Below, in pieces: positions 1,246-13,317 of a stretch of 13,602 bases of DNA. The notes beneath the pieces were generated by a model. The model ran no database searches. It was not told the origin of the DNA and saw only the letters and a list, made by a program, of their open reading frames with translations. The stretch is from an archaeon MnTg01 (GTDB taxonomy: Archaea > Thermoproteota > Nitrososphaeria > Nitrososphaerales > Nitrosopumilaceae): contig BFAR01000135.1 of the NCBI GenBank assembly GCA_008974855.1, forward strand, positions 1 to 13,602. Direction: 5' to 3'. The translations under genes were made by a program, and so were the position numbers. Within the stretch, counting starts at the first letter, position 1. The number at the start of each line of letters is the position of its first letter.

Positions 1246-1632
1246 TCATTTAGTTTGGATTTTAGCAATCATCGTATTAAGGGAAAACGGCTTTTGTAAT
1301 ACTTCTACTGAATCTTTCAATACTCCAGGCGCACTTAATATTGAATTGATATTATATGCTGAAGCAAATATTACTCTTTGATTTGGGCATCTTTCCAAAA
1401 TTTCTCTAACTGCTTCTGCACCACTCTTTTTTGGCATGTTATTATCAATTAATACTACATCAAATGGACCAGATTCGATAGATTCAGTATCCAGAGACAA
1501 AAATGCTTCATTATATTTTTGCATGCACTCTTCCCCATCTCTAGCAGTAGTTACACTATATCCATTTTTTTCAAGTACATGTTTGTATTGTTGGATTGTA
1601 AAAAGATTATCTTCGGCTACTAGAACATTCAA
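1246..1632 (-). CDS. Stand-alone receiver-domain response regulator
   Basis: A CheY-like receiver of 128 residues with no output domain. It has the acidic pair Glu7/Asp8, the phospho-acceptor Asp63 in VVLIDNNMP, the switch residue Ser91 in FASAY, and the conserved Lys114 in LQKPF. The start is TTG at 1632-1630, with GAGG (1643-1640) seven bases before it and an archaeal TATA box about 24 bases upstream. The gene follows the membrane histidine kinase on the same strand with a gap of 67 bases, so that kinase is the likely phosphate donor. The output must come from protein contacts, a further relay, or competition for phosphate; which of these applies cannot be seen here. It is convergent with the cysteine synthase. 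Confidence 0.92.
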   Translation of the reverse strand: MNVLVAEDNLFTIQQYKHVLEKNGYSVTTARDGEECMQKYNEAFLSLDTESIESGPFDVVLIDNNMPKKSGAEAVREILERCPNQRVIFASAYNINSILSAPGVLKDSVEVLQKPFSLNTMIAKIQTK

Positions 1633-1652
1633 GTTATTTCCTCAGTGATAAT

Positions 1653-1660
1653 TATTTAAA
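1653..1660 (-). promoter_or_regulatory. TATA box for the response regulator
   Basis: On the minus strand this reads TTTAAATA, a near-ideal archaeal TATA box. Its centre is about 24-25 bases upstream of the TTG start at 1632, which predicts a leaderless or nearly leaderless transcript. This would let the regulator be transcribed independently of the kinase gene. Confidence 0.55.
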
Positions 1661-1677
1661 ATGGACTTTAACATTAA

Positions 1678-1698
1678 GTTTGTTTAAAGTAAACAAAC
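1678..1698. repeat. Perfect inverted repeat between kinase and response-regulator genes
   Basis: Two perfect 9-base arms, GTTTGTTTA (1678-1686) and TAAACAAAC (1690-1698), flank the spacer AAG. The element begins one base beyond the kinase stop codon (1702-1700) and lies about 18 bases upstream of the response-regulator TATA box. It could be a dimeric regulator site or an RNA hairpin at the end of the kinase message. No U-tract follows on the minus strand, which argues against a simple terminator. Confidence 0.6.
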
Positions 1699-1699
1699 A

Positions 1700-3169
1700 T
1701 CATAATTTCTTATTAATTGATAATTGTGATGGATTCATTATCTTATTTTTTTGTAAAATTGGAATTGAGAACTCAAAGATTGCTCCCACATCAAATTTGT
1801 TTTGAGCAGTAATCTCTCCACCATGAGCTTGAATAATACCTTTACACAGGAATAACCCAAGACCGGTTCCTGACTGTTCCATGTTTTTGATTCCTTTAGT
1901 TACAAATTTCTCAAAAATTTTTGGTAATATTTCTTCTGGTATTCCCAAACCTGTATCAGAAATTTTTATTTGAATTTTATTTTCATCCTGATATACATGA
2001 GTATCAATACTAATAGTTCCTCTTGTAGTAAACTTCATCGCATTATTTAGAAGATTTCGTAAAACTTGTTCGATTCTCATTTTATCAATTTCAACTTGTA
2101 TATTTTCATCTAAATTCTCTCGAATAATAACAGGTTTTTTTAGATTAATTTTTTGAGATTTAGTGATACCTAAAATAAGATCATTTATTTTTATTTTTTC
2201 TAATTGTAATTCCAATCTATCACTTTCAATTTTACTTACATCAAGTACAGCATTTGCTAAATCTTGTAATTTACTTGTAAGCTGTAATACTCCATCCCAG
2301 GCTTCTTTTTGATCAATATCTCCTGATTTTGCTAATTCTGCAAAACCCAAAATAGGTTGTAAGGGACTTTTTAATTCATGTGATGCAATTTCAATGAACT
2401 CATCCTTCATTCTATCTAATTCTTTTAATTTTTCATTTGCTGTTTTCAACTCTTTTGTTTTCAAATCTACCTCTTTTTTTAGGTCATTATTGATTTGGCT
2501 AATAAAAAATCCAAGAGCCGCTGCGATTGTGCCGACGATACTAATTATGATAATTTGTCCTGTAAGTGAATCTCTTTCATTATCTTCTATCTGATTAGTG
2601 GATTCATCTGCTAGAGTTGATAATAATGCTAGCATTCCATCTAATTCCATTTCCAACTGATTTTCTATACTCAAAATTTGTTTTAGTAAATCATCATTCA
2701 ATTTCAAATAGTTTAATTCAAGAAATAAATCCCCTATAAGAATCTCATATTGTTCATGAGTTGTCTTAATGTTAGATATTTTTTGGAATAAAGTTCTGAA
2801 TTCCTCAACTGATTTTTCAGATTTTGCCATATCCATTCCCACATTCACAATATTTTTGCCTCTTTCTATATCTGAATCAATTATTTCTCCACTTAACCAA
2901 AATTCTTCTTTTGCTTTTTCAATCTCAAGTAAATTGTTCGAGTCTGTATATCTAATAATTTTTTCTATACTAGTTGTTTGAGTGGATTTTTGAAATTTAA
3001 CATCTGATACAATTTCATTAAGTGGGGCATATTCTTGGGAAATTTCAATAATTTCATTACTAACTTTGGACATTTGATACATTCCAAACATTACAGTAAT
3101 TCCTAAAAGGAGAATAATAATTCCTACAGATCCTCCAATCTTAAAACTCGTTTTAGTGTTTTTTAACAT
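1700..3169 (-). CDS. Membrane sensor histidine kinase
   Basis: A 489-residue sensor kinase. The first membrane segment is at about 12-32 and the second at about 203-225. Between them lie about 170 mostly helical, charged residues, resembling a four-helix-bundle sensor of the chemoreceptor type that faces outward. A short coiled coil (about 227-255) leads into the HisKA dimerisation domain, with the phospho-acceptor His264 in IASHELKSPL. The HATPase domain shows the N box (RNLLNNAMKF, Asn376), G1 (DTGLG, 405-409), the F box (IFEKF) and G2 (GTGLGL, 434-439). All catalytic boxes are intact. There is no PAS, HAMP or receiver domain that I can recognise. The partner is probably the receiver gene just downstream. 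The ligand is unknown. Thioredoxin reductase lies upstream on the same strand, 78 bases away. Confidence 0.93.
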   Translation of the reverse strand: MLKNTKTSFKIGGSVGIIILLLGITVMFGMYQMSKVSNEIIEISQEYAPLNEIVSDVKFQKSTQTTSIEKIIRYTDSNNLLEIEKAKEEFWLSGEIIDSDIERGKNIVNVGMDMAKSEKSVEEFRTLFQKISNIKTTHEQYEILIGDLFLELNYLKLNDDLLKQILSIENQLEMELDGMLALLSTLADESTNQIEDNERDSLTGQIIIISIVGTIAAALGFFISQINNDLKKEVDLKTKELKTANEKLKELDRMKDEFIEIASHELKSPLQPILGFAELAKSGDIDQKEAWDGVLQLTSKLQDLANAVLDVSKIESDRLELQLEKIKINDLILGITKSQKINLKKPVIIRENLDENIQVEIDKMRIEQVLRNLLNNAMKFTTRGTISIDTHVYQDENKIQIKISDTGLGIPEEILPKIFEKFVTKGIKNMEQSGTGLGLFLCKGIIQAHGGEITAQNKFDVGAIFEFSIPILQKNKIMNPSQLSINKKL

Positions 3170-9070: not shown

Positions 9071-10177
9071 TTAAGATTTAGTTCGTGCTACTTCATATCG
9101 TAACTTTTGAGTAATAGTCGCCTCAATATTATCAAAAGTATCTAACATCTTTTTCTTGTGATCTTTCAAATAATCGATTCCTCTATCTTTTAGTCTAATT
9201 TTCCAGAGTCTGATTTCTCTATGTTCTTCAAAAAATTGTTCTATCATTTGTTGACCATGTTTTTTAGGATCAATAAACAAGTCAAAATTTTCAATTGTTT
9301 TTTCCATGTCTTCATCTTCTATTGAAGATTTGATGGTTTGAATTGACTGACTAATTTCTTTTAGATTTTTAACTAATACTGGTAATTTTTTATGTGTAAT
9401 TCCAAGTAATCCTCTTTTGTCTACTCCAACTTTTTTTGCCATTTCTGGCACAAGATCATAATAATCTACTTTAGAAAACAGTTCAGTCTTTTTATGTTTT
9501 AAAATTAATCCTTTTTCAATTAATTTTGCCAATGCATCTAATGCATCAGCCTTATCAAGAAATGTAGTCCATACTATAGCTCCTATTGTATGATATCCCT
9601 GTCTAATAGATTCTAAAACAACAACTTCAATTATTCGTTTAAAACCTTCTTCTATTCTAACATTTATGAAATCTCTATCTTTTACTGCCTTTCTTGCATT
9701 TTTGACATCGATTTCAATTGCTCGCTTTAGTGCCTCTAATGATTCTGGAATTTGATACAAAAGAGATAGAAAACATGCTTTGTTATAATGTGCCATGCCA
9801 TAAGTTGGTTCAGACTCAATTGATTTTTCAGCAGAATCAAGTGCCTTTGCATATTGTTTTTGTTCATAATGAACTAGTGATTTTAAATTCCAGGCTTCTG
9901 AATTTGTTACATCAATTTCTAAAATTTTATCATACACTCTTAATGCACTTGCATAGTCATCTAAATGAAATTCTGCATATCCTAATTTTAAAAGGACATC
10001 AACATTATCTGGATCGATTCTTAAAACTTGCTCAAATACTTCAGTCGCGTCTTCAAGTTTTTCATCTGCCATTAAGTTGATGCCTTTTTTGAAAAGTTTA
10101 TTCCTGTTATAATCTGCATCTGTAAGACTCGTCTCTTCTTTGATTTCTTTTGGTTTCTTTTGAAACGGCTTTTTCAT
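9071..10177 (-). CDS. TPR-repeat protein with a possible winged-helix domain
   Basis: A 368-residue soluble protein. After a basic start (KKPFQKKPKEIK) there are about four tetratricopeptide repeats, at roughly 25-58, 59-92, 93-126 and 127-160. They show the usual pattern, for example EDATEVFEQVLRIDPDN and YASALRVYDKILEIDVTN. Residues about 185-255 (GYHTIGAIVWTTFLDKADALDALAKLIEKGLI) look like a winged helix-turn-helix with a beta wing around KHKKTELFSK. A long charged helical region (about 265-368) ends the protein. TPRs mediate protein contacts; the combined arrangement would suit a scaffold or regulator, but no target can be named. The start is ATG 10177 with a TATA box about 31 bases upstream. 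It is divergent from the collagen-like gene and convergent with the rhodanese. Confidence 0.82.
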   Translation of the reverse strand: MKKPFQKKPKEIKEETSLTDADYNRNKLFKKGINLMADEKLEDATEVFEQVLRIDPDNVDVLLKLGYAEFHLDDYASALRVYDKILEIDVTNSEAWNLKSLVHYEQKQYAKALDSAEKSIESEPTYGMAHYNKACFLSLLYQIPESLEALKRAIEIDVKNARKAVKDRDFINVRIEEGFKRIIEVVVLESIRQGYHTIGAIVWTTFLDKADALDALAKLIEKGLILKHKKTELFSKVDYYDLVPEMAKKVGVDKRGLLGITHKKLPVLVKNLKEISQSIQTIKSSIEDEDMEKTIENFDLFIDPKKHGQQMIEQFFEEHREIRLWKIRLKDRGIDYLKDHKKKMLDTFDNIEATITQKLRYEVARTKS

Positions 10178-10265: not shown

Positions 10266-10279
10266 AAATACAAAAATAC
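10266..10279 (+). promoter_or_regulatory. Candidate TATA element for the collagen-like gene
   Basis: AAATACAAAAATAC, whose second half is about 25 bases before GTG 10301, would give a leaderless transcript. It matches the archaeal consensus less well than the other boxes in this window. Confidence 0.3.
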
Positions 10280-10300
10280 TTCATAATTACACCAACGATA

Positions 10301-11638
10301 GTGTCTACTAATCCCAAAATTGAGATTCAGGGTACCTCTCCATTCAAACAACCTTCGGGGGTTTTTGAGGTTCAAATAGCTATATCTGATAAAAAACCCT
10401 CCGAGCAGAGTCTTATTTCAAAAAATTTTCCAACTCTCTGGAAGGATAAATTTCATTTACAGGTAGAACATCAAAAGTTTAAAGAAATTTTAGGTAGTGC
10501 AGAAAACCCTCTCCCAAAATCTGTATTAGATTCTACTTTAGTTTGGGTAATAGTTTCAGATCAGTTTTCTTCATTAAACTCTGTTTTTGAGGTACAAATT
10601 TCTAAAACCTCTACAAAGATACCTTCTAAACCAGAAAAACCTCAGATTGAAACTCCTAGAATAGAACCCGAATTAAGAGCTCCTCCTAAAAGTCCAAAAA
10701 TTCAGAAAGAAATTCCATCACCAAGTGATCTTCCTGGTATTCCTGGAGAACGAGGTTCTCGTGGTACTTCGGGAGACATAGGTGATAAAGGACGGACAGG
10801 ATCTCCAGGTCCACAAGGTGATCCAGGTCCACCAGGTTCAGAAGGTCCTTCGGGAGACAAAGGTGATGCTGGTCCTCCTGGAGATAAGGGTGACAAAGGA
10901 CTAGCTGGACCAAGAGGAGAAAAGGGTGACAAAGGACTAACTGGAGATAAGGGAGATAAAGGAGACAAAGGCTCGTCTGGTTTTCCAGGTGAAAAAGGAG
11001 GTAAAGGTGAAAAAGGTTCTTCGGGAGACAAAGGTGATAAGGGTCCTACAGGGGAACGGGGAACCAGGGGTCCTACCGGTGATAAAGGAACACTTGGTGA
11101 ATCTGGTTCAAAAGGAGAAAAAGGATTAACTGGTGAAAGCGGTTCTGTGGGAGATAAAGGCACTCAAGGACCTCAAGGAAAACCAGGAGATAAAGGATTA
11201 ACCGGAGTTCCAGGATCTCCGGGAGATAAAGGAGAAAAAGGAGCAGTAGGTTCACAAGGAGAAAAAGGTCTTACTGGTACGGCAGGCCCTCCAGGAGATA
11301 AAGGGCCTATAGGTCCACAAGGTCCACAAGGTCCAAGAGGTCAAGCAGGTGCACCTGGAGAAAAAGGTCCGGCTGGCCCACAGGGTATTCAAGGCCCACA
11401 AGGTGAACGAGGACAATCTGGTACACATGGTCCACCAGGTGAACAAGGACCTCGAGGCGAACAAGGTCCTCCAGGGGCTATTGGTCCTAGAGGTCCTCCG
11501 GGTCCACCAGGCGAACAAGGCGGAGCTGGAATGTCAGAAGAAAATAAAATACTGTTTAAGGAATTGTTACAGATTCTAACTTCTAAAAATATTATCACTA
11601 CTCCAGAGCAAATCAAACTTATGAGTTACTTGTATTAA
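10301..11638 (+). CDS. Collagen-like triple-helix protein with a novel N-terminal domain
   Basis: A 445-residue protein in four parts. Residues 1-104 form an unrecognised, probably beta-rich domain (VFEVQIAIS near 21-29 and VFEVQIS near 95-101). Residues 105-145 form a Pro/Lys/Glu linker. Residues 146-409 are 88 consecutive Gly-X-Y triplets without a break (10736-11527). Residues 411-445 form a short helical tail ([14 protein letters not shown]…) that could register or trimerise chains. The first two thirds of the repeat are rich in GDK and GEK, with Lys-Gly-Asp/Glu pairs known to stabilise triple helices lacking hydroxyproline. The last 25 or so triplets are rich in GPQ, GPP and GPR and have little Asp. 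No signal peptide or membrane segment is visible, so location is unclear. The start GTG 10301 is the first in-frame start after an A/T-rich promoter region. Gly codons are mainly GGT/GGA, in line with host codon preference. Confidence 0.92.
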
Positions 11639-11677: not shown

Positions 11678-11962
11678 ATGAGTCAAAAACCAAATAAAAT
11701 TGAATTTAAGATGTTGGATTTCGAACGATTAGAAAATGAATTTGTATCTTTCAAACTAGAAGATGGAACTATTGTTAAAGTCAAAGTTGATTTAGACCGA
11801 GTAGGAATTGCAACAAATTTCAATAATCCTGACGGAACTCCTCATTATGCTATTAATACATCCGTTAAATTATCTGTAATTCCAAATAACAGAAAATTCA
11901 CTGTTGAAAAAACCTCGATCAAAGGAAAGCAATCTTCTCCTCCGTCACAGATGTTTACTTGA
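11678..11962 (+). CDS. Small protein of unknown function following the collagen-like gene
   Basis: A 94-residue protein starting at ATG 11678, with AGGT (11666-11669) eight bases before it as a weak ribosome site. The body looks all-beta, with alternating polar and hydrophobic residues: EFVSFKLEDGTIVKVKVDLD (21-40), VGIATNFNNPDGTPHYAINT (42-61) and VKLSVIP (63-69). A polar tail, KGKQSSPPSQ, follows. There is no signal peptide, membrane segment or cysteine pair. The gap of 39 bases behind the collagen-like gene on the same strand suggests one transcript and perhaps a shared structure or process. I do not recognise the family. Confidence 0.75.
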   Translation: MSQKPNKIEFKMLDFERLENEFVSFKLEDGTIVKVKVDLDRVGIATNFNNPDGTPHYAINTSVKLSVIPNNRKFTVEKTSIKGKQSSPPSQMFT

Positions 11963-12213: not shown

Positions 12214-13317
12214 TCATAACCCACGAGTTTTGATTATGGTTAATACATCTTCATCCAACAATATATGATTGATTCCTACTCTTTGCCCTCCAAACTTTAC
12301 ACTTTTTCCCCAAATCAGTCCATACCTAAACTGTTTTTTCATATTTCTATGTAATTTGTTACAGATATCTAACACTGTTGAGCCCTCCTTTGCTATTAGT
12401 GGTTCTTTGAAATCTGTTTCTCCACCTTTAGGCCTCAAGTAGATTCGCATGAAACGAAGTTTTTCATAAATCATATCTTTGAGAACATCCACATTTTTGT
12501 TTGTCTCTGCAGATACTGTAATGTATTCGGATTTGATTTTTGTTTTCAAATCTTTTAGAAATTTATCATCTACCAAATCAATTTTATTGATTACTGTAAG
12601 CGCTATGGCATATGTTTTACTTCCAGACAACATATCAACAATTTGATCCGACTCAACATCTTCCCTTATCACAACTCTTGCACTAGTAATTCCATAAACA
12701 TGAAGAATGTCTTTTAGAAGTTTTTCAGATATTTTCGTTAATTTCACTTGTTGGGCTACTGAAATTCCGCCAATTCCAGTTTTTTCTATTATAATATTTG
12801 GTGGTTTTTGGTTTAATCTTATTCCAATATTTGCTAATTCTGTTACTAGAACATCTTCATGAGCTGGTTGAAACACATCTAACATCAAAAGTACTAAATC
12901 CGCACTCCTTGCCACAGATAGAACTCTTTTTCCTAATCCCTTGCCACTTGACGCGCCTTTAATAATACCAGGCAAATCCAATATCTGAATTTTAGCACCA
13001 CGGTATTCCATCATCCCAGGTACAACTGTAAGAGTTGTAAATTGAAATGCACCTATAGATGATTTTGCAGAAGTTAATCTATTTAGTAAAGTAGACTTTC
13101 CTACGCTTGGCAAACCAATGAAAACAACTGTTGCATCTCCAACTCTCTTAACATCAAAACCATCTGAGACAGTAGTTTTTTTAGATCTTGCCTCTTGATC
13201 TCTTTTTAATTTAGCAATTTTTGCTTTTAGTAAACCAACGTGATGTTCTGTGGCTTTATTGATCTTTGTTTGAGCCATCTCATCTTGTATTGCCTTTATT
13301 TTTTCAGGAATTCCCAT
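12214..13317 (-). CDS. DRG-type GTPase with TGS domain (Obg/DRG family)
   Basis: A 367-residue GTPase of the developmentally regulated GTP-binding (DRG/Rbg) family, which associates with ribosomes and translation in eukaryotes. An N-terminal helical, Lys-rich region (about 1-55, MGIPEKIKAIQDEMAQTKINK) is typical of DRG proteins. The G domain has G1 GLPSVGKS (68-75), the G2 threonines in FTTLTVVPG (about 93-101), G3 DLPG (114-117), G4 NKID (244-247) and G5 SAE (269-271). The insert between G3 and G4 (about 165-235) matches the DRG S5D2L region. A C-terminal TGS domain (about 290-366) includes the RYGLIWGKSVKFGGQRVG signature. Length and domain order are normal for the family. The TATA box lies about 31 bases upstream. 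A small zinc-ribbon gene follows in the same unit. Confidence 0.95.
   Translation of the reverse strand: MGIPEKIKAIQDEMAQTKINKATEHHVGLLKAKIAKLKRDQEARSKKTTVSDGFDVKRVGDATVVFIGLPSVGKSTLLNRLTSAKSSIGAFQFTTLTVVPGMMEYRGAKIQILDLPGIIKGASSGKGLGKRVLSVARSADLVLLMLDVFQPAHEDVLVTELANIGIRLNQKPPNIIIEKTGIGGISVAQQVKLTKISEKLLKDILHVYGITSARVVIREDVESDQIVDMLSGSKTYAIALTVINKIDLVDDKFLKDLKTKIKSEYITVSAETNKNVDVLKDMIYEKLRFMRIYLRPKGGETDFKEPLIAKEGSTVLDICNKLHRNMKKQFRYGLIWGKSVKFGGQRVGINHILLDEDVLTIIKTRGL

Follow-up and report, generated by a model that had tools for sequence, protein, structure and literature searches.

A family-wide collagen-like protein without a recognisable export signal in the Nitrosopumilaceae

We analysed a 13,602-nucleotide stretch of archaeal DNA (the window) and found that it encodes a real, conserved and lineage-specific collagen-like core protein of the Nitrosopumilaceae that carries no recognisable export signal. 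Its architecture and descent, as described below, are held with high confidence. For its function, the explanation that we prefer, and to which we give an even chance as a whole, is that this lineage-specific core protein is a cytosolic homotrimeric rod acting as a spacer or tether. The basis for that explanation is the architecture of the protein, its conservation, the glycines that have been kept, inheritance as a single copy at a mostly fixed place, and the missing export signal.

The features of the window are collected in Table 1. Pfam family PF01391 (Collagen) matched the protein at 149.3 bits, against a gathering cut-off of 27.2, and was the sole Pfam family listed for it. The first-pass annotation had described 88 perfect triplets ending at residue 409; the unbroken run is real, while the count is corrected to 89, as the last triplet, GMS at the junction with the tail, had been omitted. 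The commonest triplets are GDK (15), GPP (7) and GEK (7). The GC content of the repeat is 52%, compared with 33% for the whole window, and reflects glycine and proline, because the third codon positions are A/T-rich (GC3 of 0.15 in the repeat and 0.20 in the part before it). A repeat artefact at the DNA level was ruled out: 71 of the 89 nine-base units are distinct, TRF returned only three short arrays inside the repeat, and glycine codons have changed synonymously among orthologs.

Table 1. Features in and around the collagen-like gene, with positions in the window.
Feature	Position	Strand	Basis or remark
TPR-repeat protein gene, divergent, usual neighbour	9071..10177	-	Pfam TPR
Promoter-like block (AAATAC..AAATACTT in the family)	10266..10281	+	20-35 nt upstream of the start codon
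Collagen-like protein gene, 445 aa	10301..11638	+	GTG start; ORF translation and Pfam
N-terminal beta-sandwich domain, residues 1-102 (predicted fold)	10301..10606	+	AF2; single copy in 36/37 family genomes
Variable Pro/Glu/Lys/Ser-rich linker, residues 103-145	10607..10735	+	Ortholog alignment
89 uninterrupted Gly-X-Y triplets, residues 146-412	10736..11536	+	Strict count and Pfam PF01391
GPR-GPP-GPP cap (conserved), towards the C end of the repeat	11483..11509	+	Position counts in 85 orthologs
33-residue helical-hairpin tail (predicted fold)	11537..11635	+	AF2; column identity in orthologs
orf94, 94-aa protein gene, other side of the inferred insertion point	11678..11962	+	Neighbour comparison
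OBG-type GTPase gene (MMR_HSR1 and TGS), further neighbour	12214..13317	-	Pfam

Orthologs were gathered as 105 entries, 36 in one set (window included) and 69 from named loci. The two sets share some genomes, and 97 entries are distinct. Removing 11 that were open-ended or contained N, together with L038, which appears frame-broken, left 85 complete distinct orthologs. Among the alignments, A1 leaves out the copy of G023, A3 holds a chosen subset of 18 of the 30 tails in A2, and A4 covers 66 of the 69 named loci, all of which have the N-domain.

The promoter-like block upstream of the gene has A at positions -35 to -33 in 94-95% and at -27 to -25 in 92-98% of the 85 orthologs, and we read it as a putative archaeal TATA box. 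A Shine-Dalgarno-like motif was seen in two of the 85; a TATA-like block with few such motifs is what is expected for leaderless archaeal transcripts. In the window, the upstream in-frame stop is separated from the start by 11 codons, which is also the median of the 85 orthologs. Five orthologs (L042, L043, L048, L051 and L064) have a possible start at least 15 codons upstream. If used, the longer starts of L048 and L051 would run across the site of the promoter-like block, and the possible extension of L051 contains a hydrophobic segment, which calls for caution.

The first-pass annotation had noted neither a signal peptide nor a membrane span nor a cell-wall anchor, and hydropathy and the upstream stops agree with it. 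Within the first 45 residues of the 85 orthologs, the highest 15-residue hydropathy mean is 1.3 (median 0.35); no stretch is strongly hydrophobic, and by this measure no signal peptide was found there. The top 19-residue Kyte-Doolittle mean is 1.08 for the window protein, with a median of 1.25 and a maximum of 1.65 (residue 81, inside the N-domain) over the 85 orthologs, where the usual cut-off for membrane spans is 1.6; hydropathy gave no clear membrane span in this set. LPXTG occurs in none of the 85, no lipobox was seen within their first 40 residues, and RR appears within the first 15 residues of a single ortholog. By eye, a hydrophobic, signal-like N-terminal segment is present in further collagen-like proteins of the order, those of MY2 contig C21, G043, G039 and G055. 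Archaea of this order can thus mark a collagen for export, and here the mark is missing, so that the protein may be a collagen working inside the cell. As to location, we consider cytosolic residence reasonably likely, as against export, which we consider doubtful.

The first-pass annotation had allowed for a rod that is exported, and nothing that we found shows that it is. The chief alternative to a cytosolic rod is the same trimeric rod exported without a classical signal, which would serve as a surface fibre or adhesin, strengthen the S-layer, or bind particles or cells, with the tail or the head as its anchor. We regard this as possible but rather unlikely. Export without a leader does occur, a surface location predominates among the characterised prokaryotic collagen-like proteins, spore-nap and phage-fibre collagens have no signal peptides, and an earlier start of L051 would add a hydrophobic stretch; against this stand the 85 orthologs just described, with no clear signal, lipobox, membrane span or LPXTG among them. 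The available part of PMC13037477 bears on the question as well, as it reports an "LPXTG-anchored collagen-like adhesin" at both the transcript and the protein level in Ca. N. chungbukensis MY2 and suggests that it has a role in the S-layer. This adhesin may be the MY2 ortholog of the window gene, which scores 167 bits with NCBIfam NF038329, compared with 43.7 for the other collagen piece of MY2. However, the label, at least as the available text gives it, could mean this ortholog or another collagen gene of MY2, which has at least one more. It is also the name of NF038329, whose cut-off of 325 the MY2 ortholog misses by about half and the window protein misses at 130.7 bits.

Comparison with known systems gave partial likenesses. 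As in the streptococcal proteins Scl1 and Scl2 (NF038330 and NF038329, the SclA and SclB models), a non-collagen N-terminal head is joined to a long uninterrupted Gly-X-Y run. In contrast to the window protein, with no recognisable signal or LPXTG, Scl1 and Scl2 are exported and LPXTG-anchored, and the window protein has an additional C-terminal hairpin; besides its score with NF038329, it falls below the cut-off of NF038330 (127.8 against 400 bits). Phage and prophage collagens (such as EPclA) and the spore protein BclA are signal-less and assembled in the cytosol, which is a further likeness, but the gene described here lies on the chromosomes of an archaeal family, once per genome, and the phage searches gave no match for it. 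Lcl of Legionella (NF046116) shares the order of a collagen repeat followed by a C-terminal domain, and the window protein scores 140.7 bits with its model, below the cut-off of 500, with the best stretch inside the repeat. A difference is that Lcl is presented in the available part of PMC10723406 as an extracellular adhesin. Closer to hand, the MY2 C21 piece and G043 show that related archaeal genomes contain Gly-X-Y repeats; these differ in their hydrophobic, signal-like starts, and G043 has no N-domain or tail match.

Two further collagen-like arrangements came to light in the order. Another collagen-like gene of Ca. Nitrosotenuis chungbukensis MY2 (L159 and L158), apparently split over two contig ends, has a signal-like start; its collagen part is preceded by Ala/Lys-rich repeats and followed by repeats of other kinds. 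In another family, two proteins (L166:4571-6991 in G039 and L167:1050-3224 in G055) have a hydrophobic N-terminus and a collagen stalk of 19-21 triplets, with ten CxxCH motifs and MtrC/MtrF-like domains. We read these as multihaem cytochromes carried by a collagen stalk, perhaps with a role in extracellular electron transfer.

The repeat itself forms a single unbroken Gly-X-Y run in all 85 complete distinct orthologs, 9,803 triplets in total. The counter used skips pieces of fewer than five triplets and would overlook a break so near an end. Between the members of eight ortholog pairs, 16-76 glycine codons differ and every difference is synonymous, while the X and Y codons of the same pairs show 13-55 nonsynonymous differences. 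The absence of nonsynonymous glycine differences follows from the runs being unbroken; the point is that the DNA has diverged and the glycine frame has been kept. This bears on a second alternative, in which only the N-domain and tail are functional, and the repeat is a low-complexity expansion that is unstructured or nearly neutral. Such an expansion would fit the variable length of the repeat (69-185 triplets, median 120), the divergence at the X and Y positions and the few copies that appear frame-broken inside the repeat, those of G009 (L038), G017 (L057) and L124. Nevertheless, we find it improbable, given a glycine frame that is intact over all these triplets despite synonymous codon change, and given a GPP cap whose distance from the tail is fixed. 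The frame breaks may stem from sequencing error, decay or phase variation.

Some copies are less complete. Several contain runs of N, and that of G028, a relative of G007, is cut by a contig end. In G007 (L036), whose genome is 0.8 Mb, the gene has been kept, but its repeat is short, with two runs of 10 and 22 triplets, and its tail has diverged, being only 22% identical to that of the window protein; genome reduction may lie behind this.

Counting back from the C-terminal end of the repeat, triplets -6, -5 and -4 are GPR in 75, GPP in 83 and GPP in 78 of the 85 orthologs, which puts the conservation of the GPP-GPP pair at 92-98%, compared with a share of 7.4% for GPP among all triplets. The tail that follows has 33-37 residues. 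Mean column identity over the last 45 residues is 74% in 30 orthologs (84% in the chosen subset of 18), above the 54% of the N-domain in 35 orthologs; the whole part before the repeat ranges from 119 to 187 residues in the 85. An N-terminal domain of about 104 residues and a helical tail of 35 had been proposed from the window alone, and AF2 supports both, as a folded head of about 100 residues and a helical tail of 33. The tail is predicted as two helices in a hairpin, with pLDDT of 95-98 per ten-residue block over most of its length. The N-domain is predicted as a six-strand, all-beta fold with a mean pLDDT of 81, falling below 50 at residues 103-112, and has generic similarity only to known structures. 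The conserved hairpin lies next to the GPP cap, in the position that a non-collagen trimerisation domain would take.

These parts suggest how a homotrimeric collagen-type rod could form inside the cell. The C-terminal hairpin would gather three chains, and the GPP-GPP cap beside it would nucleate a triple helix that zips towards the N-terminus. The helix would be held by proline and by G-(D/E)-K triplets, presumably with no hydroxyproline. With the 0.286 nm rise per residue of the collagen triple helix, the window protein would make a stiff rod of about 75-76 nm, and the length of about 75 nm given in the first-pass annotation holds if the repeat is a triple helix; across the family the rods would measure 59-159 nm. 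One end would display three small beta-sandwich heads on flexible linkers and the other a conserved helical foot, an arrangement that could space or tether, in a multivalent way, two partners in the cytosol or on the inner face of the membrane. The predicted trimer and triple helix are very probable, while the tether role is a reasoned guess. More tentatively still, and at somewhat less than even chance, the gene may provide these archaea, one of the most abundant archaeal groups, with an intracellular collagen rod of roughly 60-160 nm that links or spaces the chromosome, the division machinery or the membrane, and that arose once in the stem of the family and was kept by almost all members examined.

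The distribution of the gene follows the family closely. A search with the N-terminal 145 residues over 61 genomes of the order returned one copy in each of 36 of the 37 Nitrosopumilaceae (own genome included) and none in the 24 genomes of other families. A profile of 35 N-domains matched 51 of 201 genomes of the order, all of them Nitrosopumilaceae, and the misses listed, 20 of 150, are one genome of the same family (G201) and 19 of other families. The two misses of these searches within the family, G031 and G201, look like assembly gaps, because the TPR gene begins at base 15 of its contig in G031 and was not found either in G201. The tail profile matched 33 of the 61 genomes, again one copy each and all Nitrosopumilaceae, missing G007, G028, G031 and G036 in the family. 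By both the N-domain and the tail, the gene is single-copy wherever it was found. The first-pass annotation had allowed that the repeat might be missing from close relatives; it is present in 36 of the 37 family genomes, and any match to PF01391 occurs in those 36 and in four of the 24 others.

Scanning named genomes with the tail gave 93 confirmed matches, of which 80 loci were kept. They carry the labels Nitrosopumilus, Nitrosarchaeum, Nitrosotenuis, Cenarchaeum, Nitrosomarinus, Nitrosomaritimum, marine group I and Thaumarchaeota. On the strength of these labels the family is taken to be the Nitrosopumilaceae, and orthologs in such kin of Nitrosopumilus support the archaeal host assumed at the outset. 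The N-domain was not found in 11 of the 80 loci. In each of these 11 the match to the tail lies within about 900 bases of the locus start, which indicates a contig cut inside the gene. Two loci labelled otherwise, L110 (Phycisphaerae) and L147 (Nitrososphaeraceae), are typical in having the TPR neighbour and are probably mis-binned contigs.

The gene also mostly keeps its place. Of two sets of 35 and 69 loci, which share genomes, 32 and 65 have a divergent TPR gene within 700 nt (97 of 104). Downstream, orf94 follows within 3 kb in 20 and 25 loci of these sets, and the OBG gene within 7 kb in 25 and 47; orf94 was found in 21 of the 37 family genomes. Outside the family, the TPR gene was found in 6 of 24 genomes, all without the collagen gene. 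Two of these, G038 and G054 of one other family, are the only ones holding both TPR and orf94, and there the two are divergent neighbours with some 100-200 nt between them and no collagen gene. As the flanks adjoin in these genomes, the gene was probably gained once, between TPR and orf94, in the stem of the Nitrosopumilaceae. It may instead have been lost in the family of G038 and G054, but a stem gain is favoured by the N-domain being found in no genome outside the Nitrosopumilaceae. Distances between N-domains track those of TPR (34 genomes, r 0.69), SiR (30, r 0.77) and OBG (25, r 0.72), with none of 2000 permutations as high. Elsewhere in the window, positions 1246-3169 hold a histidine kinase (Pfam) with an N-terminal hydrophobic segment and, beside it in the same orientation, what appears by eye to be a response-regulator-like protein.

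That the gene is a decayed tail-fibre gene left by a prophage or another mobile element is extremely unlikely: collagen-like repeats do occur in prophages (PMC3368898, in the part available), but this reading is already contradicted by a gene that keeps a family-wide fixed place, present in 36 of 37 family genomes and mostly at one site among cellular genes. The first-pass annotation had named a match of the N-domain to a tail-fibre family as evidence for such an origin, and none emerged. When the N-domain of one ortholog was compared by tblastn with 50,697 phage records, nothing matched at E up to 1; PHROGs gave nothing at E below 0.06 (best E 0.062, in one of 67 members), and scans of viral contigs with the tail and the N-domain gave no confirmed match.

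Collagen-type rods are mostly thought of as extracellular. In the parts available, PMC5302728 describes collagen segments as practically found only in Metazoa, the review of prokaryotic collagen-like proteins in PMC8968730 contains no word beginning with "archae", and PMC8889253, PMC6697440 and PMC3836704 hold nothing on the window gene. Among the matches listed from the openly available literature, as far as their text was available, the gene is not described as such, with the automatic adhesin label of PMC13037477 as a possible exception. The Nitrosopumilaceae, which are major marine ammonia oxidisers, thus carry a single-copy, family-wide collagen-like gene without a recognisable export signal, and its birth is likely traceable to an identifiable empty site. 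If the protein is cytosolic, archaea would have a collagen with a structural task within the cell; if it is exported, it must take a route that has so far escaped recognition.
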